A stretch of 61,721 bases of DNA from a bacterium (GTDB lineage Bacteria > 4484-113 > JAFGCY01). The stretch's first letter is position 1, and every line of letters begins with the position of its first letter. Under the pieces are notes generated by a model. That model was given only the letters and a program-made list of their open reading frames with translations. It was not told the origin of the DNA and ran no database searches. The translations under genes and the position numbers were made by a program. Where the stretch lies: contig JAFGCY010000021.1 of assembly GCA_016932385.1 (NCBI GenBank), positions 1 through 61,721 of the forward strand, given 5' to 3'. Shown here piece by piece: positions 503-61,529 of the stretch.

Positions 503-1042
503 ATGCCGAACGCGGACCGGCAAAAACGGTTTGAAGAAGCGCTCAGCCCAGCGGTTTATGGCGCGGCCTGGCGCTTTGGCTGCCGGCTGGCCGACTGCCG
601 CGAGGATGCCGAGGACCTGTTGCAGGAAGCGCTGGCGACGGCCTTCGCGCGGTTCGACCAGTTGCGCGATCCACTGCGGTTCACGCCCTGGCTCTTGGCC
701 ATCGTGCGCCGCTGCCACCTGATGAAGCTGCGCGAGCGCAGCCGCCGGCCCCGACAGGTGGATGTGATGCGCGAGCCGGTGGCGGAGCCGGATGCGCCCG
801 GTTTTTCCGGCGAGGTACGGGCGGCGCTGGCCGGCCTGCCGGAGCGGCAGCGGACGCTGCTCGCGCTGGTCTACGCCGAAGAGCTGAGCCAGGTGGAGGC
901 GGCCCAGGTGCTGGGCGTCAGCCCGGCCGGCGTCCGGATGCAGCTGACCCGTGCGCGGCGGGCCCTGCGCCGGGCTATCGAGCGGCAGTGGGCTGAGGAT
1001 GCCGACCCGCGGTCCGTGCGGGTGCCCAAGCGAGGTGAATGA
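503..1042 (+). CDS. ECF-type RNA polymerase sigma factor
   Basis: A 179-aa sigma-70 family protein of the extracytoplasmic-function class: it has regions 2 and 4 but no regions 1.1 or 3. Region 2 spans about residues 20-75, including the DAEDLLQEA segment (35-43) that contacts core polymerase and the -10 element. Region 4 spans about 105-160 with the helix-turn-helix LSQVEAAQVLGVSPAGVRMQ that reads the -35. Start ATG 503 follows GGGTGGGA. The stop overlaps the next start (ATGA at 1039-1042), so the two genes are translationally coupled, the usual layout for an ECF sigma and its membrane regulator. The target regulon is unknown. Confidence 0.9.
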   Translation: MPNADRQKRFEEALSPAVYGAAWRFGCRLADCREDAEDLLQEALATAFARFDQLRDPLRFTPWLLAIVRRCHLMKLRERSRRPRQVDVMREPVAEPDAPGFSGEVRAALAGLPERQRTLLALVYAEELSQVEAAQVLGVSPAGVRMQLTRARRALRRAIERQWAEDADPRSVRVPKRGE

Positions 1043-2436
1043 TGCATAAGAATGCGAACAAGCCCGGGAACGGCGCTGAATTCAATGGAAGCGGCGCGGA
1101 GCTGGACGCGCGGATCGAGGACGAACTGCGTGCACTGCCGCTGCCGGACTACGCCGCCGATCCACCCAATCGCCACGTTGCGCTGGCCGGTGCCTGCCGC
1201 CGCGCACCCCGGCCGGCCCGGCCGTGGTACGCCAACCGCTTCGTGCTGGCCGACGCGATCGTGCTGGTCGTGATCGCCGCCGCGGCTGTCTGGTTCTGGC
1301 CGCACGCGGATCAGCCCGACGGCAACGGCGTCGCCCTCGGCCCGCAGTCCGCCTGGGCCAAGACGGATGGCTACATCATCGATGTGGATTTCATTCAGTG
1401 GTCGCTTGACATCGAGAATATGAAGGAGGAAGACATCCAGGCCTTGCCGGGCAACCAGCTACACACGGTAGTAGATAGCATCAACACACCGGGGAATCCC
1501 GAAGTGCTGGTCAGGAATGAGCTGCCCTTTTCATCGACTTGCATCCGCGATGGAATCATCATCTCCAGTATTTCTCTAATGCTCAAAACGCAGAACGAGG
1601 AGTTACTGGACCAGGTAGTGACTGCGCTGAGAGAGATTGCCGGTCTGTCCGCTCCGGTTGTATACAAAGAAAGCCTGTACCTGAATGGAAAGTACCCGCA
1701 GCTCTACACGCCGGAGCGCAAGCTAATCATCAACGGGCGCGAGTATCACTACCCCACGGAGATCGACGCTGAATACGTCGAGACTGTCCACAACATCTTT
1801 AGGTTTATCGATCGGGACTGGGTGGTGTATAAAACGTATTTCACCAGCCTGCAGAAGCGTGGCATCGAACCACTGGTGCCCGGCGATGTGATCGAGATCA
1901 GGTTCAACGCCGAGGGCGATCTGGTGCTCAACACCGTAGTGGAGCACTGGGATCCCGGCGTGGATTCGCGGGAGCGCAAATCGGTGGCGCTGACGAACGT
2001 GGACCTGGCCGCGGGCATCGATCCCCTGGAGTTGCTCAGGGAGAGCTACCTGGAGGACTCCGGCTCTGCGTCGGCGGATGAAGAGACGTTGAAGCACTAT
2101 CACCGTGCCTACATCGTTTTCTGGTTCATTCCTCGCGACAGGCTGCTGGCGGCTTATGATGAGCTCCTGACTACTGAAGAACTGGCGCAATCGCGCGCCG
2201 ATTACGACCGGCTGCAAGCCGTAGTCGAAACCTGGCGAAGTCAGCACCCGCAGCGGTCCAGAACCGATCCGGATTACACCTGGCTGCGCACGCGGCCGCC
2301 GGCGACATTCGGAATCGGTGTCGCCTGGACGGAGTTCACCTTAAAAGCCCGGCGGGAGAACGACATCGACGAGTTCGTCCAGCTGGTCACGGACAGCACG
2401 GGGATTGAGCCGGAAGTGGAAAAGTCCTGGCGCTAG
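1039..2436 (+). CDS. membrane-anchored protein coupled to the ECF sigma; candidate anti-sigma factor
   Basis: A 465-aa protein with a roughly 65-residue cytoplasmic N-terminus, one membrane segment (about residues 68-88) and a large extracytoplasmic domain. Position and topology fit a regulator that holds the upstream sigma factor at the membrane. The N-terminus lacks the HxxxCxxC zinc motif of ZAS anti-sigma factors, so it would have to be a non-zinc type. The outer domain, about 370 residues, is not recognised. It has a segment around a 'VPGDVIEIRFNAEGDL' stretch that looks like a beta-rich fold. Start ATG 1039 overlaps the sigma stop; ATG 1042 is a possible alternative. The anti-sigma role is inferred from context. 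Confidence 0.7.
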   Translation: MMHKNANKPGNGAEFNGSGAELDARIEDELRALPLPDYAADPPNRHVALAGACRRAPRPARPWYANRFVLADAIVLVVIAAAAVWFWPHADQPDGNGVALGPQSAWAKTDGYIIDVDFIQWSLDIENMKEEDIQALPGNQLHTVVDSINTPGNPEVLVRNELPFSSTCIRDGIIISSISLMLKTQNEELLDQVVTALREIAGLSAPVVYKESLYLNGKYPQLYTPERKLIINGREYHYPTEIDAEYVETVHNIFRFIDRDWVVYKTYFTSLQKRGIEPLVPGDVIEIRFNAEGDLVLNTVVEHWDPGVDSRERKSVALTNVDLAAGIDPLELLRESYLEDSGSASADEETLKHYHRAYIVFWFIPRDRLLAAYDELLTTEELAQSRADYDRLQAVVETWRSQHPQRSRTDPDYTWLRTRPPATFGIGVAWTEFTLKARRENDIDEFVQLVTDSTGIEPEVEKSWR

Positions 2437-4241: not shown

Positions 4242-4913
4242 ATGGCTAAAAGCCTGGGATTGTTGATTGTAGTCGTACTGCTGATCCCTGTACTGCTTTT
4301 GGCCGCTTGCCAGTCGTATATTCAGATACCGTATAACCCGCAGGTGTACGTGACGGTGCCCGTGAATATGATCGGCGGGGAGAGCTCAACCTGGACCGTT
4401 ACGTGGAACAGCTTCGGCACGCCGCCGTACACGATCATCATGAAAATGGGCGGCGGGACGACACAAAACATCCCCGCCGGCACCGCGGCAACCAGTCCGT
4501 TCAGCCGCAGTTTCGAAATGATCGGCCCGAGCCTGGCGGACGATGTTACTTACACATACACGGTGCTGGTCAGCGATGCTTGCGGCAAGTGGGCATCAAC
4601 CAGCGGCGACTATAGCGTCGGTCCGATCTGCGTACTGCCGCCGAATATCGATAGCGTCAGCTACAAAGCGCCGAAGCTGGTTGTCGACGTCAGTGACGAG
4701 GACGGTGTTCCGCTGACGGCTTCGGTCTCCGAGCCGCCCGGGCTGAATGCCGAATTCACATTCTCGGCGGCGGGAACGTACCATCTGGGCTTTGAGCAGT
4801 TCAACACCGTCAAGCGCACGTACTTCAGCGATATGAACTCAAACGAGTATTACTGGGCCGATATCAGCAACGACTATCCCGATGTACCAAATTCGATCAA
4901 GGTGGTGAATTAA
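4242..4913 (+). CDS. array lipoprotein 1 (short form, C domain mostly deleted)
   Basis: A 223-aa lipoprotein: signal peptide with lipobox LLAAC, acylated Cys about residue 23. It has the array's Ig-like domain A (GTPPYTIIMKMGGGTT; TYTYTVLVSDA), part of domain B (DVSDEDGVPLTASVSEPPGLN), and then jumps straight to the terminal motif GTYHLGFEQFNTVKRTYF...DISNDYPDVPNSI. The other five members have about 150 further residues at this point, so this copy looks like an in-frame deletion product of recombination between paralogs. Start ATG 4242 follows GGAGGA by 5 nt. The stop TAA overlaps the next ATG (4911-4915), so translation is probably coupled. Family function unknown. Confidence 0.8.
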   Translation: MAKSLGLLIVVVLLIPVLLLAACQSYIQIPYNPQVYVTVPVNMIGGESSTWTVTWNSFGTPPYTIIMKMGGGTTQNIPAGTAATSPFSRSFEMIGPSLADDVTYTYTVLVSDACGKWASTSGDYSVGPICVLPPNIDSVSYKAPKLVVDVSDEDGVPLTASVSEPPGLNAEFTFSAAGTYHLGFEQFNTVKRTYFSDMNSNEYYWADISNDYPDVPNSIKVVN

Positions 4914-6178
4914 TGATGTGGCAATGCAGATTGTCGATACGCATCTCGTTGGCAGCGCTGATCGCGGCGCTGCTCGGCTGCCTGTTGTTGACGGGCTGCG
5001 ACACCAAGAACGTGGGGACGGGCGGGATACTCCCGCCGGAACCGCCCCAGCCGATCGTGACGGTGCCGGCAAACCTGGCCGGCGGCGTGGAGGCGACGTG
5101 GGTTGTGAACTTCATCGGTATCGCTGTGCCGTTCAGCATTGAGATGCAGATGGGCGGCGGCACGACGCTGGACGTGCCGGCCGGCACAATGGTCAGCGGC
5201 AGCAGCTTTTCCTACACTTTCATGATGGTCAACCCTAGTCGGACCGATCCCGCCACTTACACCTGGCTCGTGCGGACAACCGCTGAGCCGGGCTATTCAT
5301 TCACCGATTACGTCGGCACCCGCGAAGCTACCGGCGCGTACACTGTAGAGCCCACGCCGAACAACCCGCCCGTGATCGACAACGTGACCTTCGCGGACGG
5401 CGTGCTCAGCGTATACGTCAGCGACGCCGACGGCGACGAGCTGACGGTGACGTTGGAGGGCGGCGTTACATCCATGTTCGATGAACTGAGCAAGGTGGCG
5501 GTCGACGGCGTTGCGGAGTTTACGACTGGCGGATTCGGCGATAGCTTCATCTCCGGCGGTACCGGTGATGTAGAGATTACCGTGACCGACGATTACGGCG
5601 GCGAGGACACCTTTACCTATACCATTACGATCGACGCGATCAGCATCCCGGCCGGTGCGCTGGCGGCCGTGCCGTCTGATACGCTGATCCAGACGGGCGA
5701 TACCGTTACGGTGGTAGTGATCGCCGGCGATTTCCCGGCGGCGGCACCGTTTATGTACATGAATGGCGCCGGTATTACTATCGAGGAAAGCGCTTCCTAT
5801 GTGGACGATTCGCTCAACGTCGGTGCGCCGGGCCGCGAGCGAGATGATATTGATGGTATTTGGGCTGGTATGTCTTCCGCACCCACGGGCTTCCTGCTGC
5901 CCATCGGCTTTATGATAGAGGAACTGCCCAGCAACGACAGCGGCCGCGTGCGGATCGACTTCAATATTACGCCGATCGGCGGCGGCAACCTCACCACCGG
6001 CGGCGTGCTGTTCAACTTCGCCCTGCAGTTCGATCACGCCGGTACTTATACACTGGGCTTCGAGGAGTTCAACCTGGTCCAGCGCACGTACTACAACGGC
6101 GCCGATGCCCAAAGCCAGACCTGGGACGATATCAGCAACGACTATCCCGATGTACCGAACACAATCGAGGTGACGTAA
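4913..6178 (+). CDS. array lipoprotein 2 (domains A-B-C, cohesin-like C-terminus)
   Basis: A 421-aa lipoprotein with lipobox LLTGC (Cys about 29). Domain A (about 40-145) is beta-rich and carries the MQMGGGTTLDVPAGT signature. Domain B (about 150-240) has cadherin/PKD-like 'VYVSDADGDELTVTL'. Domain C (about 243-421) starts IPAGALAAVP, continues TGDTVTVVV, then FMYMNGAGITIEE, RIDFNITPIGG, TTGGVLFNFAL and GTYTLGFEEFNLVQRTYY, and ends with DISNDYPDVPN. The order of motifs in C resembles cohesin domains; this is inference. ATG 4913 overlaps the previous stop (TAATG). Exposed on the outer face of a membrane; partner unknown. Confidence 0.8.
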   Translation: MMWQCRLSIRISLAALIAALLGCLLLTGCDTKNVGTGGILPPEPPQPIVTVPANLAGGVEATWVVNFIGIAVPFSIEMQMGGGTTLDVPAGTMVSGSSFSYTFMMVNPSRTDPATYTWLVRTTAEPGYSFTDYVGTREATGAYTVEPTPNNPPVIDNVTFADGVLSVYVSDADGDELTVTLEGGVTSMFDELSKVAVDGVAEFTTGGFGDSFISGGTGDVEITVTDDYGGEDTFTYTITIDAISIPAGALAAVPSDTLIQTGDTVTVVVIAGDFPAAAPFMYMNGAGITIEESASYVDDSLNVGAPGRERDDIDGIWAGMSSAPTGFLLPIGFMIEELPSNDSGRVRIDFNITPIGGGNLTTGGVLFNFALQFDHAGTYTLGFEEFNLVQRTYYNGADAQSQTWDDISNDYPDVPNTIEVT

Positions 6179-6201
6179 GGTGGTATGCGAGGTGAAATGA
6201 G

Positions 6202-7452
6202 ATGAGCATGCGGACCGTAATGATATGGCTGGTAATGCTGCTGCTGGCCCTGAGTGCCAGTGCCTGCCGGACGACGCGCCATCTGCCCGAACCGGAGACG
6301 GGCACGATCACCCTCAGCGCCGAGTACACGCGGCTGACGCAGGAGCTGGCGGTCAGCGCGGTGCACTCGCTCGGCGAGGAAGTCGGGCTTGAGCTATGGG
6401 GGCCGGGCGGAGTCAGCGGTGAAGGCGGACCGGACTGGACGCCGCCGGCGGACGGCAGCGCGCTGGTCATCCCGCTCAGTTTCGATGCGGATGAAGACGA
6501 TACGGTTACGCTCAATGTCCAGGCCTCCGCGCCGGACGGAGCAACCGCCGGTACGCAAATCGCCATCACGCGCAGTGTGATCGTCAGTGTCGATAGCATC
6601 AGCTTCGAGACACCTGGCGAGTTTCGTGTCATGGTGTCTGCTGACTTCGAAGCGGGGGCCTTGGTCGATATCGACGTGGAAACAACCAGCCCACCGGGAA
6701 TTACGATCAACCCCGTTCCGCGGTACGATCCGGTTGCCAGCCAAGCGCGGCATGCCATCAGCGAGACCGGCAGCGCGATTTTTGATTTTAGTTATGCCGC
6801 CGAGGATCCGTTTGCCGGCGGAGTGGGCTCTGCAACGATCACGGCTACCGCCACGGACCAGTACGGTCACGCCGATGTTGAATCGACGACGGCGACGGTG
6901 CTTCCTCCGGCGTTCTCAATTCCCACCGGCGCTCTGGCGGCCGTGCCGGCGGATACGCGCATCACCACGGCGGACACGGTGACGGTTGTCGTGATCAGCG
7001 GCTTTCTGTCCACCGACCAGCCGTTTACGTATATGAACGGCGTGGGCGTGACGATCGAGGAAGGCGCATCGTATGTAGACGGTACGCTTAACGTCGGCGC
7101 GCCCGGCGGCAGCATGAAACAAGTGGACGGCATCTGGGCCGATATGGCTTCCTACCCGCAGAGTTTCCTGCTGCCGGATGACTTTATGATCCAGGAGCTG
7201 CCCAGTAATGATGCGGGTCGGATCCGCATCGACTTCAACGTCACGCCGATCGGCGGCAGCCAGGTTACATCAGGCGGGGTGTTGTTCAACTTCCAGCTGC
7301 AGTTTGACCACGCCGGTACATACACGCTGGGCTTTGAGGAGTTCAACTTGGTCAAGCGCACGTATTACAGCGACACCGAGAACAACGAGTATTACTGGAA
7401 TAACATCAGTAACAACTATTCCGGTGTGCCGAATTCGATTACCGTAACCTGA
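6202..7452 (+). CDS. array lipoprotein 3 (domains A'-B'-C)
   Basis: A 416-aa lipoprotein with lipobox SASAC (Cys about 22) followed by RT, as in copies 4 and 5. Its N-terminal part differs from copies 1, 2, 4 and 6: GTITLSAEYTRLTQELAV...HSLGEE...DGATAGTQIAITRS is shared only with copy 5, so it defines a second subfamily (A'). Domain C starts about residue 239 (IPTGALAAVPADTRI, DTVTVVVIS, YMNGVGVTIEE, GGVLFNFQL, GTYTLGFEEFNLVKRTYY). Start ATG 6202 follows GAGGTGA by about 5 nt; the gap to copy 2 is 23 bp, so they are probably cotranscribed. Function unknown. Confidence 0.8.
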   Translation: MSMRTVMIWLVMLLLALSASACRTTRHLPEPETGTITLSAEYTRLTQELAVSAVHSLGEEVGLELWGPGGVSGEGGPDWTPPADGSALVIPLSFDADEDDTVTLNVQASAPDGATAGTQIAITRSVIVSVDSISFETPGEFRVMVSADFEAGALVDIDVETTSPPGITINPVPRYDPVASQARHAISETGSAIFDFSYAAEDPFAGGVGSATITATATDQYGHADVESTTATVLPPAFSIPTGALAAVPADTRITTADTVTVVVISGFLSTDQPFTYMNGVGVTIEEGASYVDGTLNVGAPGGSMKQVDGIWADMASYPQSFLLPDDFMIQELPSNDAGRIRIDFNVTPIGGSQVTSGGVLFNFQLQFDHAGTYTLGFEEFNLVKRTYYSDTENNEYYWNNISNNYSGVPNSITVT

Positions 7453-7490
7453 ACTAAGTAGTAGGATATATATAGATCCAGGAGGAGAAA

Positions 7491-8687
7491 ATGATAACTA
7501 ACAGATTCGCAATTGTACTGATCATTTTGATTGGCCTGTTATTGGCCGGCTGCCGGACGGCGAACACGCCCGACGAGCCGCAGATATTCATGACCATCCC
7601 GCAGAACATGGCCGGCGGTGTGGATGCCACCTGGACCGTGACCTGGGACGCCTTCGGCACGCCGCCCTATACCATCGCCATGACGATGGGCGGCGGCACG
7701 ACGGCGGACGTGGCGGGGGGGACGGCGGCGACCAGCCCGTTCAGCCAGACGTTCACGATGGTCAATGCCAGCACGACCGCGGCGGCGACGTACACCTATA
7801 CGGTGACCATCACCGACGCGGCCGCCGCGACGCTGACCGCCACCGATACCTATACGGTTGGGGCGACCACCGTCACCAACAACGATCCGAGCATCGATAA
7901 TGCCGTCTTCGCCAACGGCGTGCTGACGGTCACGGTCAGCGATCCGGACAACGATACGCTGACGGTGACGATCACCGAGCCCACCGGCCTCTCCGCCGAT
8001 GCCACCAGCGTGACGGCGGTCAGCGGCGTGGCGGAGTTCGCCATCGCGCCCGACGACATCCTGGCCGGCGCCAGCGGCGATACGACGATTACCGTCGACG
8101 ACGGCAACGGCGGCACGGACTCGATGACATACACGCTGACGGTCGCGGCGATCAGCATTCCGGCGGACACGCTGGCGGCGATCCCGCTGGCAACGGCGGC
8201 CACCACTGATGATACGGTCACGATCGTCGTGGTCAGCGGTACGTTCGCCAACCCGTTCCGCTATATGAACGGCTGCGGCATCACGATGGAAGAGGGGCCC
8301 GACTACGTCGCCGGGACATTCAACATCGGCGCGCCGGGTGGCGCCCAGAAGGACTTCGACGGTATCTGGGCCACGATGGATCCGGTGCCGGACGGCGTGT
8401 TGATGCCAGACGACGTGATGCTCCAGGCCATCGATATCGGCGGCGGCCTGATCCGCTATGACTTCAACGTTACGCCGATCGGCGGCTCGGACATCACTAC
8501 GGGCGGTGTGCTGTTCAACGTCGGCCTGTCGTTTGACGATCCCGGCACTTACACCTTCGGTATCCAGGAATTCAACCTGGTAAAACGGACGTATTACAGC
8601 GATGGCGACGCCACGGATTACAACTGGGGTGACATCAGCAATGATTACACCGGCGTGCCGAACTCGATTGTCGTAACGGCACCGTAG
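7491..8687 (+). CDS. array lipoprotein 4 (domains A-B-C)
   Basis: A 398-aa lipoprotein with lipobox LLAGC (Cys about 21). Domain A matches copy 1 most closely (FGTPPYTIAMTMGGGTTADV, GTAATSPFSQTFTMVN). Domain B is VTVSDPDNDTLTVTITEPTG. Domain C begins about residue 221 (IPADTLAAIP, DDTVTIVVVSG, YMNGCGITMEE, DFNVTPIGGSDITTGGVLFN, GTYTFGIQEFNLVKRTYY). The intact order here shows what was lost in copy 1, which jumps from the EP(T/P)G segment to the end of C. Strong AGGAGGAG 5 nt before ATG 7491. The 38-bp gap contains GGATATATAT, a possible internal promoter. Very high Thr, Ala and Gly content. Confidence 0.8.
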   Translation: MITNRFAIVLIILIGLLLAGCRTANTPDEPQIFMTIPQNMAGGVDATWTVTWDAFGTPPYTIAMTMGGGTTADVAGGTAATSPFSQTFTMVNASTTAAATYTYTVTITDAAAATLTATDTYTVGATTVTNNDPSIDNAVFANGVLTVTVSDPDNDTLTVTITEPTGLSADATSVTAVSGVAEFAIAPDDILAGASGDTTITVDDGNGGTDSMTYTLTVAAISIPADTLAAIPLATAATTDDTVTIVVVSGTFANPFRYMNGCGITMEEGPDYVAGTFNIGAPGGAQKDFDGIWATMDPVPDGVLMPDDVMLQAIDIGGGLIRYDFNVTPIGGSDITTGGVLFNVGLSFDDPGTYTFGIQEFNLVKRTYYSDGDATDYNWGDISNDYTGVPNSIVVTAP

Positions 8688-8711
8688 CACGGCCCCGGGG
8701 AGGATAGGGTT

Positions 8712-9965
8712 ATGTTGACTAATCGGAGTCGTAACTGGCCGGTGGCGGCAGCGTGGCTGCTGCTGCCGGCCCTTTTGCTATTCACCGGCTGCCGGACGAG
8801 TGCGACGCCGGATCCGGACCCGAGCGCCGGCAGCATCACGCTTGCTGCCACCTACAACCGGGCGACGCATAACTTGGCGGTTGATGCGACGCATTCGCTG
8901 GGCGAGGAGATCACCATCAGCCTGAACGCGCCGGCTTGGATCGAGCCCGTCGACGGTCCGACTTGGGCCGTGCCGGCCTCGGGCACGCTGGTGATCGAAC
9001 TGGCGTTCGCCGCCGCCGCGAACGATGCCGCCAATGTAACTGTGCAGGCCATCGGCGCGGATGGCGCGACGGCCAGCCAGACCGTCGCGATCCAGCGCGG
9101 GCTGGCGGTCAGTATCGACAACGTCACCTACAACGAACCGCGGCTTCTCGCCGCCGTGACCGTTAGCGCGGCCGAGGACAGCGAGGTCGAGCTGACGCTG
9201 GCGGTGGACGAAGCGTTGGCCACGGCCGCCCCGCAGCAGCATACGCTGACCGGTGGCGGCGACCATACTTTTGACCTGGAGCTTACCCCGCGGTTCGCGC
9301 TGGCGATCGGCGTCGGCAAGTCATTCGGCGGCGGCAGCGGGAACGTGACGCTGACGGCCACGGCCACGGATCAATTCGGCGATGCGGTGACGGCGACGCG
9401 GGCGCAGGCCGTGTCTTTCACGGCGGTGGAGATTCCGGCCGGCTGCCTGGTGGCCGTACCGCTGGAGCGGCAGGTCGAGCTGGGTGACGCGGTCACGATC
9501 GTGGTCGCCAGCGGGGACTTCCCTGCCGCGGCGCCGTTCCATTATGCCAATGGCCTGGGGATCACCGCGGAGGAGACTGTCTGTTACAGCGACAATAGCT
9601 GGAACATCGGCATTCCGGGTGGCGCGTTCGAGGAGTTCGACGGCCTCTGGAGCACCATGGATCCAGTCCCCGCCAGCGTGCTGCTGCCGGGCGACATGAT
9701 GATCCAGTTCAATAATATCGGTAATGGTCGCGCGCGGGTTGATTTCAATGTCACGCCGATCGGCGGGTCGAATACAACTGCCGGTGGAGCACTGATGAGT
9801 TTCCAATTGCGGCCGGAGACCGCCGGCCCATACACGCTGGGCTTCCAGCAATTCAACGAAGTAAAGCGCACCTATTACGCCGACAGCGAGTACCACGAAT
9901 ACTACTGGGACGACATCAGCAACGTGGTTGACGGCATCCCGAATTCGTTTGTCGTCGTGGAATAG
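8712..9965 (+). CDS. array lipoprotein 5 (domains A'-B'-C)
   Basis: A 417-aa lipoprotein with lipobox LFTGC (Cys about 27) then RTSATPDPDP. It belongs to the A' subfamily with copy 3 (GSITLAATYNRATHNLAVDA, HSLGEE, DGATASQTVAIQRG). Domain C is more divergent than in copies 2-4: IPAGCLVAVPLE, LGDAVTIVVASGDFP, YANGLGITAEE, RVDFNVTPIGGSNTTAGG, YTLGFQQFNEVKRTYY. GGGGAGGA lies about 8 nt before ATG 8712; the gap to copy 4 is 24 bp. The terminal motif reads VDGIPNSFVVVE, so the DISND(Y)xGVPNSI signature is relaxed. Probably in the same operon; function unknown. Confidence 0.8.
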   Translation: MLTNRSRNWPVAAAWLLLPALLLFTGCRTSATPDPDPSAGSITLAATYNRATHNLAVDATHSLGEEITISLNAPAWIEPVDGPTWAVPASGTLVIELAFAAAANDAANVTVQAIGADGATASQTVAIQRGLAVSIDNVTYNEPRLLAAVTVSAAEDSEVELTLAVDEALATAAPQQHTLTGGGDHTFDLELTPRFALAIGVGKSFGGGSGNVTLTATATDQFGDAVTATRAQAVSFTAVEIPAGCLVAVPLERQVELGDAVTIVVASGDFPAAAPFHYANGLGITAEETVCYSDNSWNIGIPGGAFEEFDGLWSTMDPVPASVLLPGDMMIQFNNIGNGRARVDFNVTPIGGSNTTAGGALMSFQLRPETAGPYTLGFQQFNEVKRTYYADSEYHEYYWDDISNVVDGIPNSFVVVE

Positions 9966-10021
9966 GAATAACTTGGCGTATTCGGGAATAACAGAATACT
10001 ATGCGGGCCGCGAGGTGGGAG

Positions 10022-11329
10022 ATGCGCATCGGCGGACAATCCGGTTGGATACTCGCGATTCTCTGCGCCTGGGTCCCGGCCGGATGCGGCACGCATAACA
10101 TCGGCGGCAGTACTGCGCCCGATACCACGATGTCGGCCAGCGTCAGCGTCAGCGGTGAATTGCGCGGGGGCGAAACGGTGGTCTGGGATGTGGCGATCAC
10201 CGGTGGTACGCCGCCGTACACAGTCAACCTCGATACGGGCGGGGGCACCTGGGAGGATCCGCCGCGGGATGTGCAGGTCGACGCCGGCTACAACGGCGAG
10301 TTCACGATGATCAACCTGGGCGTCAACCAGTCCCTGCAGTACGATTACAGTGCGACAATTTCCGATGCCGAGGGGCAGTATGTGATCACCGGCGGCAGTT
10401 ATTCGGTCCTGCCGCTGATTCCGGTGCTGGAGATCGACGAGTTGTACAACGGCAGCCCGGGAGCAACCTATCAGCTAATCATGCTGTCGGTGCGCGCGAA
10501 CGACCCGAGTACTGACGAGCTCTCAGTTTCGGTGGCGACGACAGCCGGCATTGAAACAATCGAAGCCGAAGAACTCGCCGCGGCCGCTGGCAACGTAACG
10601 GACCTGGGCTCCACCGACGATGCATATCCGGGCCAGGTTCGCACCTGGGACTTCTCCATTCCGGTCTGGTCGACCGATGTGATCGACGGCAGTCGCGGCG
10701 TGGCCACGGTCACGGTCCGGGACAGCTGGGGCCAGGAAGCGACGGAAGAGCTTCAGCTCGAGCTGCCGGGACGGTACGAACTGCCCTTTCACTCGCTGGC
10801 GGCGATTCCCCTGGAAACCAGTGTGGATGTCGATGAAGAAGTAACGGTAGTCGTGGCCTGCGGCGAGTTTCCGGAGAATCAGCCGTTTCATTACATTGGC
10901 AACATCGGCCTGACCGCGGAGGTTGGTGCCAATGCCGTCGGCTTTGAACCGAATCCCGGCGCACCGGGCGATCCGGCAGACTCGAAGGTGGATGGGATCT
11001 GGCTCAAGCAGGACCCGCCGCCGAGTGGCTTCAGTACGGGATTCAGTGAACCGCTGATCCTCAAGAGCGAGATCGGAGATGGCCGCGCTCGGTTTGACCT
11101 GGGTGTTTTCCCCGTCGGCGGCAACTCGACCACTGAGGGCGGCTGTTTGCTGAATGTCGACCTGTGGTTTGCCGAGCCGGGCACCTACACGCTGGGCTTC
11201 GAGGAGTTCAACGAGGTCAACCGGACCTATTACTCAGACCAGAAATTCTACGGCGGCAACGAATACCTCTGGGCCGACATCAGCAATGACTACGCCGGGG
11301 TACCGAATTCGATAACCGTGCGTGAATGA
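10022..11329 (+). CDS. array lipoprotein 6 (most divergent member)
   Basis: A 435-aa lipoprotein. ATG 10022 is chosen over ATG 10001 because GAGGTGGGAG lies just upstream and the signal peptide then ends in lipobox VPAGC (Cys about 22). Domain A is recognisable (GGTPPYTVNLDTGGGTW, FTMINLGVNQSLQYDY). The B region carries acidic insertions (DPSTDELSVSVATTAGIETI). Domain C is kept: LPFHSLAAIPLETS, DEEVTVVVACGEFP, YIGNIGLTAEVG, RFDLGVFPVGGNSTTEGG, GTYTLGFEEFNEVNRTYY, DISNDYAGVPNSI. It closes the array; a large inverted repeat follows. Function unknown. Confidence 0.8.
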   Translation: MRIGGQSGWILAILCAWVPAGCGTHNIGGSTAPDTTMSASVSVSGELRGGETVVWDVAITGGTPPYTVNLDTGGGTWEDPPRDVQVDAGYNGEFTMINLGVNQSLQYDYSATISDAEGQYVITGGSYSVLPLIPVLEIDELYNGSPGATYQLIMLSVRANDPSTDELSVSVATTAGIETIEAEELAAAAGNVTDLGSTDDAYPGQVRTWDFSIPVWSTDVIDGSRGVATVTVRDSWGQEATEELQLELPGRYELPFHSLAAIPLETSVDVDEEVTVVVACGEFPENQPFHYIGNIGLTAEVGANAVGFEPNPGAPGDPADSKVDGIWLKQDPPPSGFSTGFSEPLILKSEIGDGRARFDLGVFPVGGNSTTEGGCLLNVDLWFAEPGTYTLGFEEFNEVNRTYYSDQKFYGGNEYLWADISNDYAGVPNSITVRE

Positions 11330-12641: not shown

Positions 12642-13538
12642 GTGGTGCCGGAGCAGATAGATTATGACGCGGCTGCCAACGAATGGCTGCAGATTCTGCT
12701 GATGCTCTGCTGGATCATCGTGATCCCCACGCTGATCCTCGGGTTCCGACGCCTGTACGAATGGCTCTATCCCGACCAGGGCCCGACGTACCTGGAACGC
12801 CACACCGGCCTCAACCTGGATCGCTCCGATGACGCCGAACCGATGATCCTGCCCCTGGTTAACGTCAACGTGGCGCCGTCGTCGGACACTGCGCGCCTGA
12901 AGATGGGCATGCTCGAGGCGCACCTCCTGCCGCCGCCCGTCTATCCGCCCGCCCGGGCCGTGCAACTGATGCAGCTGTACAAACACCGTTGGGCGATCGC
13001 CGGCGGCTGGGCGATCGACCTGTTCCTGGGTGTGCAGACGCGCGAGCATGAGGACATCGAGCTGGCCGTGTTCCGCTCCGACCAGGGCGATCTGCGCCAG
13101 CACCTCGTCGGCTGGAACCCGACGTATATCATCCCCGGCGACAAGCCGCGCGAGCTCCCGTGGCCGATGCAGGAGAACCTGGCGCTGCCCATTCACGAGA
13201 TCCACACCCGGCCGCCCCAGCGCGACCTGGCGGACATGGAATTCCTGCTCAACGAGACCGACGGCGCGGACTGGATCTTCCGCCGCGATCCGCGCGTGCG
13301 CCTGCCGCTGGGCGCGGCGATCATGCGCGGCGACGGCGGCGTGCCCTATCTCGCGCCCGAGATCGTGTTGCTCTACAAGGCCAAGCACCCGCGCGCGGTG
13401 GACGAGCAGGACTTCCAGGCGGCGCTGCCCATGCTGGATGATGTACGGCGCCAATGGCTCGGCGCGGCGCTGAATACGGTGCACCCCGGCCACCCCTGGC
13501 TGGCGGCGCTGAACGAGACCAACCGGCAATCGCCCTAG
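12642..13538 (+). CDS. membrane-anchored nucleotidyltransferase-like protein (ANT/AadB-type domain)
   Basis: A 298-aa protein. The C-terminal two thirds (about residues 105-290) resemble the small nucleotidyltransferase family that includes aminoglycoside 2''-adenylyltransferases: IAGGWAIDLFLG...REHEDIELAVFR holds the acidic metal site, followed by WIFRRDPRVRLPLG and PYLAPEIVLLYKAKHPRAVDEQDF. Unusually, it begins with a hydrophobic segment (about residues 15-35, LQILLMLCWIIVIPTLILGF) and a roughly 70-residue linker, which should anchor it to the membrane. The substrate is unknown; a resistance role should not be assumed. GTG 12642 or 12645. Its stop overlaps the stop of the convergent gene at 13535. 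Confidence 0.75.
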   Translation: MVPEQIDYDAAANEWLQILLMLCWIIVIPTLILGFRRLYEWLYPDQGPTYLERHTGLNLDRSDDAEPMILPLVNVNVAPSSDTARLKMGMLEAHLLPPPVYPPARAVQLMQLYKHRWAIAGGWAIDLFLGVQTREHEDIELAVFRSDQGDLRQHLVGWNPTYIIPGDKPRELPWPMQENLALPIHEIHTRPPQRDLADMEFLLNETDGADWIFRRDPRVRLPLGAAIMRGDGGVPYLAPEIVLLYKAKHPRAVDEQDFQAALPMLDDVRRQWLGAALNTVHPGHPWLAALNETNRQSP

Positions 13539-14616: not shown

Positions 14617-16476
14617 TTAAGGGGCCTCGAAATATGCAAATTGCAGGCCTTCGTTGGTGCGATAGCCGATCATCAGCGTATCGTCCGGCAGCAACAGTGA
14701 CAGATTCTGGCCGTTAAGCAGAACCGATGCCGCCGGATCGTAGAGCACGCCTGAGGTGAAGTCGCCGGGCCCGGCCGGCGTCTCGGTATTGGCGTAAGTG
14801 ATTTCCAAAGTCGAGCTGGTAATTTCGCTGACGATGTGCAGGAAGAACGGCCGGTTGTTATACCAAGCCAAGGTCTGGTTGACACCCACGTCGATACGAT
14901 CGGCTGTCTGGTCCCGAACCGTTATAGTCGTCCAATCGGTAGCGCTGGCGGGATTAGGGACATCAAGCAAGGTAAGGAGCAGGTATTCATCGAAGTAGTC
15001 ATCGCCAATGTTGACATACGACATTACCGGCAAGTCGTTGACGACCAGCAATTCCACATCGTTACCGCTGTTGTTGTTGTCTTCGTTGATTGTTACGAGA
15101 GTCCAGACGATCGAGATACCAGTTGGAGCTTTTGCTCCAGTGGTGACCTGCTCGTCGTAAGCGTAGCGCAGTTCCTTACGGGAACTACCCGCCCATTGAT
15201 ACGCTATCACCGGATGACCGTTGACAAAGGCCAGTTGCGGTTGCTTCAGATCGGATGCTGAATCGTCAACGATGCTGGTATCCCAGTCGTCGACCGCCGC
15301 AGGTGGCACTCCCGCCGCCGTGTTGGATTCGGCATAGGTAATGCTGGGACCGGATGCCTTGTAGACCGAGGCAATCTGGTCGCTGCCGGTTACGGCCAAG
15401 TACGGCGGCGTCAGAACGCTGAAGTCCAGTTCGTGGACGGTCCAATCGCTGGTGCCAGATGGCGACAGGCTGCTGGCGTAAGCGAAATAGCAGTCGCCGC
15501 TGGTCCGCTCCTTATATGTCACGCATGGTACGCCGTAGCATTCCACCAGATGGACCGGTCCCGTCATCGTGTCGCTGTCATCCACTGTCGTGATAATCCA
15601 CTGCGACGGGCCCGTTGGTTTCAGGTCGATGGCCCGGGCGTAACGGATCCGTTCGCTGTCAGAATCGACGAAGACCATCGCGGGCAGGCCGCCAACCAGT
15701 GCCAGGTCAATGAAATCTGGATTGTTCCCGATGTCCGAGCCGCTGACTACTTCGTGCGTCACCCAGTTCTCCGGGTTGAACATTGCCTGGGCGGGATCGA
15801 GCGCGTACAGCGGGTCGGCCTCGGGGCCGGCAAAGACGCGGAAGTCCGCCGCCGCCCCGCCGTTGCCGATCGTTTGCGTGTAGTGCATCCAGTCCGACGT
15901 GGCCGTCGCCGCGCCGTTGCCGCGCGGAATGTTCGCCACGGGTTGCCAGTTGCCGCCGCCGATGTCGGCTTCGACTACATAGTTCAGCACGGCGCTGTTG
16001 AAGTTCTGGCCGATCGGGGTGATGTCGCTGACCTCGACCAGGCCGTTTTGGTTGCCGTCCGCGCAGGAGGCCGCCGCCCAGTCGCCGGCGGAGGTGTCCT
16101 TGCCGAAGTGCACGCCGATCGGGGTTAGGTCGTTGACCGTGACGAAGCCGTCCTGGTTGTAGTCGCCGCGGTTGTTGTAGTCCCACTCCAGCCGCACGTC
16201 CCCGCCCACCGGGGTGATCGTCAGCGTGCTGACATAAACGCCGGTAACATCGGCCAGGCCCTTATCGCCCTGGGCGACGAGTTGCCGCTCCAGCGCGCCG
16301 GCCAGCTGCGCCATCACGGCCGGATCGGCGCCCGTCGTATCCACCGGCTGGCCGAGTACGGCCGGCCTAGCGTCGCCGGCTGCCTGGTCGAGCCTGCCGC
16401 CGGCGCAGGAGCCCAGTCCTGTTGCCAGTAGAAGAACAACGATCAGGAAGAGAACAACATATCTGACTACTTGCAT
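14617..16476 (-). CDS. lipoprotein with dockerin-type repeats and a 7-bladed propeller
   Basis: A 619-aa lipoprotein: signal peptide with lipobox GLGSC (Cys 24). Two dockerin-type calcium loops lie near the N-terminus: DYNQDGFVTVNDL (105-117) with TPIGVHFG, and DGNQNGLVEVSDI (140-152) with TPIGQNFN. The rest consists of about seven ~55-residue repeats of the type 'LALVGGLPAMVFVD...IRYARAID', matching those of the lipoproteins at 23975 and 32502; seven repeats suggest a 7-bladed beta-propeller. A TACAAT box ends 6 nt before the ATG, so the mRNA may be leaderless. An ATGAGA...TCTCAT dyad lies upstream. The role is not known; the dockerin loops suggest attachment to a partner. Confidence 0.8.
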   Translation of the reverse strand: MQVVRYVVLFLIVVLLLATGLGSCAGGRLDQAAGDARPAVLGQPVDTTGADPAVMAQLAGALERQLVAQGDKGLADVTGVYVSTLTITPVGGDVRLEWDYNNRGDYNQDGFVTVNDLTPIGVHFGKDTSAGDWAAASCADGNQNGLVEVSDITPIGQNFNSAVLNYVVEADIGGGNWQPVANIPRGNGAATATSDWMHYTQTIGNGGAAADFRVFAGPEADPLYALDPAQAMFNPENWVTHEVVSGSDIGNNPDFIDLALVGGLPAMVFVDSDSERIRYARAIDLKPTGPSQWIITTVDDSDTMTGPVHLVECYGVPCVTYKERTSGDCYFAYASSLSPSGTSDWTVHELDFSVLTPPYLAVTGSDQIASVYKASGPSITYAESNTAAGVPPAAVDDWDTSIVDDSASDLKQPQLAFVNGHPVIAYQWAGSSRKELRYAYDEQVTTGAKAPTGISIVWTLVTINEDNNNSGNDVELLVVNDLPVMSYVNIGDDYFDEYLLLTLLDVPNPASATDWTTITVRDQTADRIDVGVNQTLAWYNNRPFFLHIVSEITSSTLEITYANTETPAGPGDFTSGVLYDPAASVLLNGQNLSLLLPDDTLMIGYRTNEGLQFAYFEAP

Positions 16477-23400: not shown

Positions 23401-23819
23401 ACGACGACGTTGATCATCCCCTGCAAGCCGAGCTCACGGCCGTCGTCGGGCGAGAAGATCCGGTCGATCCCCGCCGCGTGCAGCGCTTCGATCTCGCGCG
23501 GCACGATCACCCCGCCGCCCCCGCCGTAGATCTTCACGTGGTTGGCGCCGCGCTCGTTAAGCATCTCGCGCATGTAGGTGAAGGTCTCCATGTGCCCGCC
23601 CTGGTAGCTGGTCAGCGCGATGCCCTGGGCGTCTTCCTGGATCGCGGCGTTGACGATCTCCTCGACCGAGCGGTTGTGCCCGAGGTGGATCACCTCCGCG
23701 CCGGTGGCCTGCATGATGCGGCGCATGATGTTGATCGAGGCGTCGTGGCCGTCAAACAGGGAGGTGGCCGAAACGATGCGCACCGGGTGCTGTGGTTTGT
23801 AAACGTTAGTACTGCTCAT
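20481..23819 (-). CDS. icmF: fused isobutyryl-CoA mutase IcmF (B12 domain, GTPase chaperone, mutase)
   Basis: A 1112-aa fusion, the usual IcmF length. Residues ~10-145 are the adenosylcobalamin-binding domain with the DxHxxG-type motif FDGHDAS (22-28) and TSYQGGHME. Residues ~185-430 are a MeaB-like G domain: Walker [10 protein letters not shown] (193-201), [10 protein letters not shown] and [11 protein letters not shown]. The C-terminal ~550 residues are the mutase barrel ([31 protein letters not shown]). IcmF interconverts isobutyryl-CoA and butyryl-CoA (and isovaleryl/pivalyl-CoA) by a radical mechanism, with GTP hydrolysis guarding cofactor loading. A good promoter lies upstream; the gene is monocistronic. 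The substrate could differ, since methylmalonyl-type specificity was not checked residue by residue. Confidence 0.93.
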
Positions 23820-32501: not shown

Positions 32502-34541
32502 ATGTTACGGAATCTCTGCTTAATGCTTGTTGCGATCATGGTTCTCGCTGGTTGCGGGGGCCCGGGAATCACCTCCGCGGAAAACCCGGAAGGTACCACA
32601 CTGACGCAGGCGCTCAATGATCTTGCGAATTCAACAACGCCCGCCAACGTCGATACGGACACGTACGACCTGCTGAAAACCGAACTGGCGCGCGTGTTAA
32701 GCGAGCGTGGCGTCGACCGTTTCGTCAGTGCTCCGCCAGCTACGGCGGCCTCGGCGGCGGTGCTGACGTTCGACGGCGGCACCTCGACGCTGGCCTGGGG
32801 CTTCGCCAGCGCCGGCGACTACAACCAAAACGGCCTGGTCGAAGTGGCGGACCTGACACCGCTGGGCCAGAACTTCAACGAGTCCGGCCCGTTCGACTAC
32901 AACTCGGTCGAGGCGGTGGTAGACGGCAACAGCGATGGCCTGATCAGCGTCAACGACATCACGCCGATCGGCCAGAACTACGGCAACAGCCTGTCGGAAT
33001 ACCACGTTTACGGCAGCGACTCGCAGGACGACTATCCGCTAAGCGCCGCCGACGACAACGGCGCCGCCACGCAGTTGGCCGTGCTGAGCCTGGGCGACGG
33101 CACCGCCGCCACCGGCCAGCGGACCCAGTTCAGCTATACCGTGACGACGCCGCACTACTTCTACTGGGTGCGGCCCAGCGACGGCGACTCCGAAGGCATC
33201 GCCAGCAACCTGGCCGACGGCGGCGGGGGGGGCGGGACGGTCGAAGCGCCTACCTTCACGTTCGACATGGAAATCATGCCGGGTGGTTTCTGCGGCGGCC
33301 CGTATATTGTGGAGGAGAATCCGGCCGTGCTGCTGGTGGAAGACGGCGGCTCGGGCAGTGGGACGCTGTACTACATTCGCGCGACGGATTACGCCGGCAC
33401 CGCCTGGAGCGATCCCGTCGAGCTGTCCAATGACAGCATGTGCTACGCGGACCTGGCGATCATCGGCGGCAATCCGGCGGTGGCCTACGCCGTCGGCTGG
33501 AGCGGCCCGTTGATGTTTGTCCGCGCCACTGACGCCACCGGCTCGTCCTGGGGCACACCGGTGACGGTGGACAGCGCGGTCACGAGCCACACCAACAACA
33601 TGAAGCTGCTGGAGGTCGACGGCCGGCCGGCGATCGGCTACGCCAGCGACGGCGGCGGCCAGGATGAGGACCGCGTCGCCTATATTCGCGCCGAGGATGC
33701 CCTGGGCGCTACCTGGCCGGCAGCACCGGTGATCGTCGAGCCGGACTACGCGGTCAACCTGCAGGCACGCAGCTGCGACCTGGGCGTGATCGGCGGCAAC
33801 CCGGCCATGGCCTACACCTATGATCACTACGACGCCAGCACCAACGGCGTGCGTTTCGTCCGGGCCACGGATGCCCAGGGCGGCGCCTGGGCCACGCCGG
33901 TGGAGATCGATTCCTGGGACGATTCGCTGAACATCATGGCGCGCAACCTGAACCTGGTTGACTTGGACGGAGTACCCGGCGTGGCCTGGTTCATCGAGGA
34001 CTTCATGGCGCCGGAGAACAGCATCGTCTGGTTCCGCGGGGCCACGGCTGCCGCCGGGACGGCCTGGCACGACAAACAGGGCATCTCCGGCAATCCCGAG
34101 GCTACGGCTGCGCCGTTGTTCGGCTCGGTCACCACCTTTGAGAACACCGCCGGCGAGTTGATGGCCGCGGCAACCCTGGCCCGGGCCGCCGATGCGACGT
34201 ACCGGGGCGAGGGTTTGCTGGCACCGGTCGGCGCGGCGGGTGTCGTGGACTGGTCGACGGCAGCCTTGTTCCAATTCAGCCCCACCGGGGCGGAAGCAGG
34301 CCATGGCGCCAGTGCGTCCGTGGCGGGGATCAAACAAGCGTCCTGCTATAACAGCATGGATTTCCTGAGCATGATGCTCTTCTGCTGTCTGTTCGGCGGT
34401 GGCGGCGCCGGCCATGGCGCCTCGGCGGTCGGCGAGGGCTACGTGTACCGCATCTACTCGCTGTCGTCGGGATACCAGTTTGAAACCAGCCTGACCGAGG
34501 CGATGTTCTGTTACATCGAGCTTCCGGGTACGACGTTCTAG
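32502..34541 (+). CDS. lipoprotein with dockerin-type repeats and propeller-type repeats
   Basis: A 679-aa lipoprotein (lipobox LAGC, Cys 18). Two dockerin-type loops: DYNQNGLVEVADL (106-118) with TPLGQNFN, and DGNSDGLISVNDI (141-153) with TPIGQNYG. After a Gly-rich linker come propeller repeats keyed by LAIIGGNPAVAYAV, MKLLEVDGRPAIGYAS, CDLGVIGGNPAMAYTY and LNLVDLDGVPGVAWFI, like those at 14617 and 23975. The last blade region is odd: two GHGAS motifs (about 598 and 637) bracket a hydrophobic Cys-rich stretch (CYNSMDFLSMMLFCCLF). Weak SD. A terminator follows. Surface-attached; ligand unknown. Confidence 0.8.
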   Translation: MLRNLCLMLVAIMVLAGCGGPGITSAENPEGTTLTQALNDLANSTTPANVDTDTYDLLKTELARVLSERGVDRFVSAPPATAASAAVLTFDGGTSTLAWGFASAGDYNQNGLVEVADLTPLGQNFNESGPFDYNSVEAVVDGNSDGLISVNDITPIGQNYGNSLSEYHVYGSDSQDDYPLSAADDNGAATQLAVLSLGDGTAATGQRTQFSYTVTTPHYFYWVRPSDGDSEGIASNLADGGGGGGTVEAPTFTFDMEIMPGGFCGGPYIVEENPAVLLVEDGGSGSGTLYYIRATDYAGTAWSDPVELSNDSMCYADLAIIGGNPAVAYAVGWSGPLMFVRATDATGSSWGTPVTVDSAVTSHTNNMKLLEVDGRPAIGYASDGGGQDEDRVAYIRAEDALGATWPAAPVIVEPDYAVNLQARSCDLGVIGGNPAMAYTYDHYDASTNGVRFVRATDAQGGAWATPVEIDSWDDSLNIMARNLNLVDLDGVPGVAWFIEDFMAPENSIVWFRGATAAAGTAWHDKQGISGNPEATAAPLFGSVTTFENTAGELMAAATLARAADATYRGEGLLAPVGAAGVVDWSTAALFQFSPTGAEAGHGASASVAGIKQASCYNSMDFLSMMLFCCLFGGGGAGHGASAVGEGYVYRIYSLSSGYQFETSLTEAMFCYIELPGTTF

Positions 34542-53095: not shown

Positions 53096-53208
53096 TAATT
53101 CCCATGGTGCTGGCAACGGGGGATGACCGAACAAGAACCGCCGGTCCTGGTCAAGTACAATGGGAGTGAAACCGCCCCGGTGGACGGCCGGGCGATGAGG
53201 TGGGTAAC

Positions 53209-55668
53209 ATGCGCTGGCCCTGGAATTCTCAGTTGCTGTTCTGGGTAGGCATCTTCTGTCTGGCCGCCTGCGGCGGTTCCGCCGGCAGCACCCCGGATTG
53301 TGCCAAAACAACGGCGGCGCTGGTTGATGCTGGCGATAATCCCGTCCCGGCCCGGTCGGCGGCGGTGGCCTACGGCCCGCCGGACGGGCCCTACAACCGC
53401 ATCACCGACCTCGCCGGCTTCGTCGATACGGCCGGCCGGCCCGTGCTGAGCTGGACCGAACGCCTGGCCGGCGACGGCAACAACGACGGGCTGGTCACCG
53501 CGGCGGACATTACGCCGATCGGCTTCAACTTCAACGCGGTTCCCACCCCCGGCTCGCCGGCGGCGGATGCCGACTACAACAACGACGGCTTGGTCTCGGT
53601 GGCCGACATCACCGTGCTTGGCCAGCAGTGGCAGGCCTCCCTGGCCGGCTACGCCGTCTGCTCCGGCCCGACCGCCGGCGGCCTGAGCGAACTGGCGCGG
53701 CTCGAGCGCGCGGCGCAATTCACGGCGCCGGCCGCCACGGACGGACAGCTGCAATGGTCCTGGACGGGCGAAGCGCTGGCGGAGCCCACGGCGTTTCGCG
53801 TCCAGCCCTACGACGCCGGCGACTCCCTCGGCCTGGCCAGCGAGGACGCGATCACGCTCGATCCCGCCCAGGCCGGCAACATCCCGCCGCAGATCACCCT
53901 CGGCCCGGCCGCCGATCCCAGCCCGTTGACGCTGCCGGCCACGGCGGAGCTGAGCGTGGCCGCTCAGGACCTCGACGGCGGCCCAGCGCCGCTGACCTAC
54001 TTCTGGGAGCTGGTCGACGGCCCGGCGGCGGTCGGCTTCTCCGACAACGGTACCGCTACCGCTTCCACGACCACTGCCACTTTCACCGCGGACGGGTCGT
54101 ACCAGCTGCACGTTACCGTCAGCGACGGCGAGGACACCGCCAGCGGCGACCTGGCCCTGGCGGTCGATCCGCCCGGCGGCGTGGACGCGTTGATCCCCGC
54201 CGAGTACCGCGTCGACTGGCAGCCGGGCATCCCCGGCGGCATTCCGGACTATCCCGCCGGTATCAGCGTGACGGACTACGGCGCCGTCGGCGACGGTAGC
54301 ACTGACGATACCCAGGCGTTCCTCGACGCGATCGACGCCGCCCAGGAGGGCACCGCGCTGATCATCCCCGCCGGCACGTATTACCTGAACGGCACCCTGC
54401 AGATCATGAAGGGCATCTGCCTGCGCGGCGCTGGCTACCAGTCCACCGTGCTGGAGTTCCACAACGACGGCGACTGCATCGAGATCAAGGGCTGGTGGCC
54501 CAACAACTGGCTTCCCGTCACCAGCGGCTATGTTAAGGGCTCGACCGAGCTGACCGTCGAAGACGCATCGGAGATCGAAGCCGGCGACATTATCGAGATC
54601 CAGCAGGAGAACGACTACAACGTCTACCACACCGGCGAAGGCACGGGCTGGCTGGCGGAGAGCGCCGTCGGGCAGCTGTTGCCGGTCACCGCGGTCAACG
54701 GCAACACGCTGACGCTGGGCCGCCCGCTGCACTACAGCTACAACCCGGCCTGCAACCCCGTTTACGCCCACCGCACGGTGGTCACCGGCGTGGGCGTGGA
54801 AGACCTGACTATCGACCGCCTTACCGCCGTCACCAGCTACAACAACATCGAGCTGACCAGCGTCGCCTACTGCTGGGTGCGCAATGTGATGAGCAAGATG
54901 TGCGGCACGGCGCACGTCGGCGTCAGCCGCAGCCTGGCCTGCGAGATCCGGCGCTGCGGCTTCGACAACGCCTGGGTGGACGGCGGGGGCGGCCAGGGCT
55001 ACGGCACCTCGGTCGGCACCCACGCCACCGACAACCTGGTCGAGGACAACATCTTCCGCCAGCTGCGCCACTCGATGACGATCCAGGTCGGTGCCTGCGG
55101 CAACGTGATGGGCTACAACTACTCCACCGAGCCGGACCGCTCGGACGTTTGCCCCGGCTGGCCGTCACCCTGCATCTGCATCCACGGCCACTACGGCCAC
55201 AGAAACCTGTTCGAGGGCAACGTGGTGCAATTGGCCAGCATCGACAACTGGTGGGGTACCAACGGCCCGACCACGCTGTTCCGCAACCGCGTGGAGCATC
55301 TTTTAAAACCCGGCGACACGGCCAACTACTGCCTGTCGATCCAGGAAAACAACCCGCGAATGAATATCATCGGCAACGAGCTGGGCACGGCGGATCCCGC
55401 GTCCGAGGCCAACAACCCGCTGAGCATCAACGAAGATGCGATGACAACGATCATCCTGCACGGCAATTATGTCTACCAGGACGGCAGTCTGCAGTGGGAT
55501 CCGGCGATCGCGAACCACAACCTGCCGGCGTCTCTGTATCACGAAACCAAGCCGGAGTTCTTCGGCACGGCGGCCTGGCCCCCGATCGGCGGCGACATCG
55601 CGCCCACCACCACGACGATCCCGGCGCAACTGCGCTTTAACTCCGGCGAGTGGATCCCGAGCGGGTAG
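53209..55668 (+). CDS. lipoprotein with dockerin-type repeats, PKD-like domain and pectate-lyase-type beta-helix
   Basis: An 819-aa lipoprotein (lipobox LAAC, Cys 21). Two dockerin-type loops, DGNNDGLVTAADI (89-101, then TPIGFNFN) and DYNNDGLVSVADI (122-134, then TVLGQQW). A PKD/Ig-like domain follows (about 225-325; LSVAAQDLDGGPAPLTYFWEL). From ~345 a right-handed parallel beta-helix of the Pectate_lyase_3 type begins with ISVTDYGAVGDGSTDDTQAF and LIIPAGTYYLNGTLQI, and later shows repeated N-rich turns. Probably a surface polysaccharide-active or -binding enzyme; substrate and catalytic residues not identified. Start ATG 53209 follows GAGG; GTG 53200 is the alternative. Confidence 0.82.
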   Translation: MRWPWNSQLLFWVGIFCLAACGGSAGSTPDCAKTTAALVDAGDNPVPARSAAVAYGPPDGPYNRITDLAGFVDTAGRPVLSWTERLAGDGNNDGLVTAADITPIGFNFNAVPTPGSPAADADYNNDGLVSVADITVLGQQWQASLAGYAVCSGPTAGGLSELARLERAAQFTAPAATDGQLQWSWTGEALAEPTAFRVQPYDAGDSLGLASEDAITLDPAQAGNIPPQITLGPAADPSPLTLPATAELSVAAQDLDGGPAPLTYFWELVDGPAAVGFSDNGTATASTTTATFTADGSYQLHVTVSDGEDTASGDLALAVDPPGGVDALIPAEYRVDWQPGIPGGIPDYPAGISVTDYGAVGDGSTDDTQAFLDAIDAAQEGTALIIPAGTYYLNGTLQIMKGICLRGAGYQSTVLEFHNDGDCIEIKGWWPNNWLPVTSGYVKGSTELTVEDASEIEAGDIIEIQQENDYNVYHTGEGTGWLAESAVGQLLPVTAVNGNTLTLGRPLHYSYNPACNPVYAHRTVVTGVGVEDLTIDRLTAVTSYNNIELTSVAYCWVRNVMSKMCGTAHVGVSRSLACEIRRCGFDNAWVDGGGGQGYGTSVGTHATDNLVEDNIFRQLRHSMTIQVGACGNVMGYNYSTEPDRSDVCPGWPSPCICIHGHYGHRNLFEGNVVQLASIDNWWGTNGPTTLFRNRVEHLLKPGDTANYCLSIQENNPRMNIIGNELGTADPASEANNPLSINEDAMTTIILHGNYVYQDGSLQWDPAIANHNLPASLYHETKPEFFGTAAWPPIGGDIAPTTTTIPAQLRFNSGEWIPSG

Positions 55669-61433: not shown

Positions 61434-61529
61434 TACTACGGCCCGCCGTGGCCTGGGTACTACGGCCCGCCGTGGCCTGGGTACTACGGCCGGCTCTGGC
61501 CTGGGTACTACGGCCGGCTCTGGCCGTAG
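61434..61529. repeat. four tandem copies of a 24-bp unit
   Basis: Units start TACTACGGCC and end TGGCCTGGG: two read CCGCCGTGG in the middle and two read GGCTCTGG. The last runs into GTAGACCTTAAA, exactly as the single copy at 11412-11447 does. No spacers, so not CRISPR. Confidence 0.8.

Follow-up and report, generated by a model that had tools for sequence, protein, structure and literature searches.

The gene array considered here lies on contig JAFGCY010000021.1 of assembly GCA_016932385.1, from a bacterium of the GTDB lineage 4484-113 (JAFGCY01); the whole stretch analysed, 61,721 nucleotides of the forward strand, is referred to as the window. Within it, six consecutive plus-strand open reading frames (ORFs) at 4242-11329 follow one another almost without interruption (spacings of -1, 23, 38, 24, and 35 nucleotides; Table 1). 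All six products begin with a hydrophobic signal that closes in a cysteine, an invariant column of their alignment, which bears out the lipoboxes reported in a first-pass annotation of this DNA (that of array gene 6, VPAGC, was recognised by eye, as a strict lipobox filter missed it). The name COH* is used here for the C-terminal domain of the array, which has about 179 residues and is otherwise unnamed. The annotation had described six paralogous lipoproteins sharing this domain; the six ORFs stand, with five complete copies and a truncated one in place of six full domains. Each complete COH* forms the very end of its chain, behind immunoglobulin (Ig)-like parts, and the other four are 42-68% identical to the copy in array gene 2. 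The motifs that had been named for the domain recur in the closer copies and become looser in array genes 5 and 6, while conserved aromatic residues (W75, Y151, Y152, and W162 in domain numbering) and a DGxW motif could also be recognised. The product of array gene 1 is without alignment columns 201-404, its second Ig-like part joining directly to the last ~50 COH* residues, and a 161-position COH* profile matches it at positions 116-160 only; as read from the alignment, this truncation is an in-frame internal deletion within the gene. A search for a promoter of the array operon gave 2 sites versus 2.7 expected by shuffling, and 6 terminators versus 5.1.

Table 1. Positions of the array, of the dockerin-bearing genes in the window, and of related gene arrangements in other stretches
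Feature	Position or locus	Strand	Description
Array gene 1	4242..4913	+	Lipoprotein; Ig-like part and only last ~50 residues of COH* (truncated copy)
Array gene 2	4913..6178	+	Lipoprotein; two Ig-like parts, complete C-terminal COH*
Modelled COH* domain (array gene 2)	5639..6175	+	pLDDT 97, cohesin fold predicted
Array gene 3	6202..7452	+	Lipoprotein; complete COH* at 6913-7449
Array gene 4	7491..8687	+	Lipoprotein; complete COH* at 8151-8681
Array gene 5	8712..9965	+	Lipoprotein; complete COH* at 9426-9962
Array gene 6	10001..11329	+	Lipoprotein; complete, most divergent COH* at 10775-11326
Dockerin-bearing protein	14617..16476	-	Lipobox-like signal; two loops at 16012-16164; Fn3-like flanks, module 15763-16272; 14.7 bits
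Dockerin-bearing lipoprotein	32502..34541	+	Loops at 32817-32969; module 32709-33218 modelled, pLDDT 91.6; 18.2 bits
Dockerin-bearing lipoprotein	53200..55668	+	Loops at 53473-53619; PKD and pectate-lyase-like domains; 28.1 bits
Lipoproteins with Pfam-type cohesin and dockerin	L060, L085, L093-L095, L081, L110 and others		Cohesin near lipid Cys, Fn3-nested dockerin right behind
Order yjbH - COH* lipoprotein(s) - dockerin protein	L061 4019-10587; also L063, L064, L068, L069, L070, L142

The COH* domain of array gene 2 was modelled with a predicted local distance difference test (pLDDT) score of 97, and the rows shown from a structure comparison of this model (Foldseek and VIA) are cohesins. Among them are 3ul4, 4dh2, and 2zf9, entries for surface-anchoring cohesins of the OlpA/OlpC and ScaE kind. 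Model and comparison together support the cohesin fold that the first-pass annotation had proposed, here predicted as a nine-stranded jelly roll, and the confident non-cohesin topology that would have spoken against that proposal did not emerge. An assignment of COH* to the type I or type II cohesins was abandoned, since the Z differences between them are under 1.

The dockerin-type loops noted earlier in three other proteins of the window are real, one protein (53200-55668) lying above the Pfam dockerin cut-off of 22.9 bits and the other two below it. In the model of the module at 32709-33218 the dockerin is inserted in an Fn3 domain and matches 2y3n_B; this reading rests on VIA and sequence, since the Foldseek search by itself returned no row below E 0.001. 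The dockerin modules are predicted to have two calcium-binding loop-helix repeats, and their host is predicted to be an interrupted Fn3 beta-sandwich. By pattern, Fn3 halves lie on both sides of the dockerin in 38 of 45 ORFs and a second loop is present in 39 of 45 (the first loop being there by construction). Pfam Dockerin_1 was found at E<=1e-3 in 16 of 44 dockerin ORFs; matches at E<=1 are loose, as the same search was positive in 9 of 14 well-known control genomes. A minus-strand PKD lipoprotein at 23975-26611 has the YxRAxDxxGxxW-type repeats of the dockerin proteins at 14617-16476 and 32502-34541 and no dockerin loops.

Local profiles run over stretches of the source genome identified 72 different ORFs with at least one of these domains, of which 57 include a dockerin module (DOC); because the stretches were chosen for holding matches, the counts of domain order describe this fetched set rather than the whole genome. 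DOC stands alone in 31 ORFs, and in 19 it follows a second, Pfam-type cohesin (COHp) at a distance of 0-26 residues; where a lipid cysteine was called in the latter, COHp begins 2-47 residues past it, and such chains could polymerise with each other. COH* stands alone in 12 ORFs, with 8-14 residues remaining after the domain, and in eight of the ten with a called cysteine it begins 206-270 residues past that residue. On these distances, COHp and DOC would for the most part be membrane-proximal, with COH* at the distal tip of a stalk. Five ORFs combine DOC with one or two COH* (the most seen in any source-genome ORF), three have COHp alone, and two have the order DOC-COHp. The strict lipobox filter was passed by 53 of the 72, visibly missing some such as array gene 6, and most dockerin proteins have a lipobox of their own. 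Families scanned on 44 dockerin ORFs (the first 25 of 35) showed PKD and beta-propeller domains exceeding enzymes, the latter consisting of two subtilases and one each of a pectate-lyase-like protein, GHL15, and a rhamnogalacturonan lyase domain.

This cohesin/dockerin-like system extends far beyond the window. Out of 1124 candidates, the search with COH* matched 29 proteins at E 3.5e-25 or better, three of them on the window's contig, and the source genome (3.7 Mb, 113 contigs) has 19 matches. With a 40-row profile, for which the first 19 candidates were scored in the richest genomes, COH* was detected in all seven genomes of the order, including the source, and in G009 (E 1.3e-4), one of the three remaining class genomes; none of 182 further genomes had it.

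In most genomes of the class COH* lies beside yjbH. The family PF06082 (YjbH) is above cut-off in one gene in each of ten genomes of the class, with one further weak match in G009, and is absent from all 30 other genomes searched. The gene immediately precedes COH* in eight of the ten; in G002 a short ORF lies between, overlapping both. It is predicted from sequence to encode a YjbH-type outer-membrane double barrel. Published work connects YjbH and GfcD, both predicted to form double barrels in the outer membrane, with the export of polysaccharide (PMC9603273; PMC11494523), and describes E. coli GfcD as binding a lipoprotein partner, GfcB (PMC8592465). After COH*, or after as many as seven COH* genes in a row, the next gene encodes a dockerin protein in seven of the ten genomes (G000, G001, G002, G004, G005, G006, and G009), in four of which this protein carries COHp. 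Tandem amplification of COH* is seen in G000, G001, and G002; in G003 the contig ends within a COH* run, in G008 yjbH and a COHp protein are separated by a 601-residue protein of weak similarity, and in G007 yjbH is without COH* beside it. GfcB and GfcC (YjbF, YjbG) were not seen among those neighbours of yjbH, only some in number, that were scanned. The yjbH locus of the source genome is on contig C92, and not at the array in the window. In a tree of the 39 COH* copies of at least 110 residues in the fetched stretches, the C92 copy clusters with two from the window (98/88), and six copies from G001 are united in a single clade (100/99). It is likely, though not fully resolved, that the array in the window arose by lineage-specific amplification of a single COH* gene beside yjbH.

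What, then, might the array do? On balance we lean towards the view that COH* lipoproteins bind the dockerin modules of other surface lipoproteins, cross-linking a lipid-anchored coat with stalked cohesins. The co-occurrence of the two domains, their fusion in the same chain, and their neighbouring genes lend indirect support to a pairing of COH* with the TPIG dockerins. In this scheme COH* would be a stalked cohesin that grips, in a calcium-dependent manner, the Fn3-nested dockerins of neighbouring lipoproteins, and COHp-DOC lipoproteins, DOC lipoproteins, and COH* stalks would together form a cross-linked layer. The coat would sit on the outside of the outer membrane; the source genome has Omp85 and a Wza-type gene, in keeping with a diderm envelope. 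The linkage of COH* to yjbH suggests that the layer is tied to exported polysaccharide, and the coat may act beside the YjbH export barrel by holding its proteins around the exported glycan. The full picture, in which a diderm lineage without known isolates has a self-cross-linking outer-membrane coat of lipoproteins, each with a basal cohesin and an Fn3-nested dockerin, with arrayed COH* stalks rising over it, around a single YjbH port, serving capsule anchoring and not enzyme docking, is put forward tentatively and is on the doubtful side.

A number of observations weigh against the coat-forming reading. The Foldseek TM-scores are only 0.41-0.50. Pfam Cohesin (PF00963) matches none of 40 COH* members at E<=1, and Pfam and NCBIfam scans of these members gave nothing credible; because of this lack of a family-model match COH* is not filed under PF00963 and is called a cohesin-fold clade. 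A sequence search against the PDB gave chance-level rows only, the best at E 0.13. When compared by hhalign with 10 Pfam-type cohesins of the source genome, COH* scored 1.3%; against 39 Pfam-type cohesins (40 loci, 10 plus 30, minus L137 at a contig start; nine of the 39 from genomes outside the class) its profile scored 60.4%, with controls at most 0.8%, and the subset that gave 91.7% was picked after the 1.3% result. A value of 90.7% for untrimmed cohesin rows versus the dockerin profile proved to be an artefact of leftover dockerin flanks, falling to 0.8% after trimming. With regard to pairing, COHp, which frequently shares a chain with the dockerin, is a plausible main dockerin partner. 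COH* and dockerins do co-occur, except that G007 and G008 have Fn3-dockerins and no COH* match, which speaks against one-to-one pairing; outside the class, Dockerin_1 is present without COH* in six of 30 genomes. The array in the window has neither yjbH nor an adjacent dockerin gene, three of its five copies in the tree are without firm placement, and the source-genome copies do not form one clade. Finally, the product of array gene 2 has an aspartate directly after the lipid cysteine, which in E. coli favours retention in the inner membrane.

The alternative to which we assign some, though a low, probability is that COH* is a glycan-binding cohesin-like jelly roll that retains the YjbH-exported polysaccharide, COHp alone serving as dockerin partner. 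Family 3 carbohydrate-binding modules have a jelly-roll fold in common with cohesins, and the position of COH* behind yjbH, the conserved aromatic residues and DGxW motif, and the dockerins of G007 and G008 would all suit such a role. The rows shown in the structure comparison are nevertheless cohesins and not carbohydrate-binding modules, an absence from the listed rows that excludes nothing, and a purely glycan-binding domain would leave aside the five ORFs that fuse COH* with dockerins and the dockerin gene that follows in seven of ten genomes. The same fusions and the same retained neighbour argue against COH* being a homophilic or purely structural adhesin tip, whose stalks would join cells or one another without dockerins, even though a fibrillar adhesin (9ifr, CLIPPER domain) supplies one of the Foldseek rows, COH* is found at the end of the stalk, and its genes are tandemly amplified in three genomes; we regard this as improbable.

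An ordinary cellulosome-like dock, in which COH* lipoproteins would tether secreted dockerin enzymes to the surface for polymer degradation, appears to us to have little chance of being correct. The few enzyme families noted above do occur on dockerin ORFs, and by eye the initial signals of two of these (L078 2074-3303 and L079 1928-3799) show no lipid cysteine, but among the families listed enzymes are outnumbered by PKD and beta-propeller domains, and most dockerin proteins have their own lipobox and thus need no cohesin for anchoring. Nor does the system resemble a multi-cohesin scaffoldin that docks mainly glycoside hydrolases, as there are at most two COH* per source-genome ORF and few enzymes among the first 25 of 35 families of the 44 dockerin ORFs. 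Compared with the cellulosomal type I and II pairs of Clostridium thermocellum, Acetivibrio cellulolyticus, and Bacteroides cellulosolvens (3l8q, 2b59, 2y3n), COH* is without a Pfam match, single cohesins stand on lipoprotein stalks instead of on a long scaffoldin, and the dockerin, seldom borne by an enzyme, lies between Fn3 halves.

Other known systems offer parallels as well. The anchoring cohesins of OlpA/OlpC and ScaE likewise comprise one cohesin per surface-anchored protein, whereas in the present case anchoring is predicted to occur through a lipidated N-terminal cysteine and the genes occur in arrays. With the Group 4 capsule and Yjb operons (GfcD/YjbH) the system shares a PF06082 gene, which here precedes COH*, but its neighbours encode an Ig-Ig-cohesin-like lipoprotein and a dockerin protein. 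Non-cellulosomal cohesin-dockerin sets are already known: in anaerobic methanotrophic (ANME) archaea (PMC9012536) and Cloacimonadota (PMC8542988), from which cellulosomes are not known, dockerin and cohesin proteins are numerous, and ANME proteins with a dockerin and several cohesins (PMC9012536) resemble the DOC-COH*-COH* ORFs. In the excerpts of these reports the sets involve substrate-binding proteins, S-layer proteins, or a tandem-cohesin scaffoldin, and the yjbH linkage, lipoprotein arrays, and Fn3-nested dockerin seen here are not described (PMC9012536, PMC8542988). Literature searches found no title or abstract on Fn3-nested dockerins or the COH* clade.

Should the coat-forming reading be correct, it would add a cohesin-fold clade that the searched family libraries miss, and a use of cohesins and dockerins that is large in scale, membrane-tethered, for the most part non-enzymatic, and tied to polysaccharide export. 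Few known protein-protein bonds match the strength of cohesin-dockerin pairs, on which designer cellulosomes are built; fixed at both ends within Fn3, a dockerin might serve as a sturdier mechanical handle, and it would become possible to test directly, with two small domains, what non-cellulosomal cohesins do.

Several other features of the window may be mentioned. Upstream of the array, at 503-2436 (plus strand), there is a Sigma-70 type, extracytoplasmic function (ECF)-like sigma factor overlapping a 465-residue ORF without Pfam match. The plus-strand ORF at 12642-13538 has a short match to the aminoglycoside nucleotidyltransferase-type family PF10706 (residues 108-150, E 7.9e-8), and a single minus-strand ORF at 20481-23819 fuses a B12-binding domain, a MeaB-type GTPase, and methylmalonyl-CoA mutase. 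At the window end, a 24-bp tandem repeat of ~3.8 copies occupies 61434-61525.
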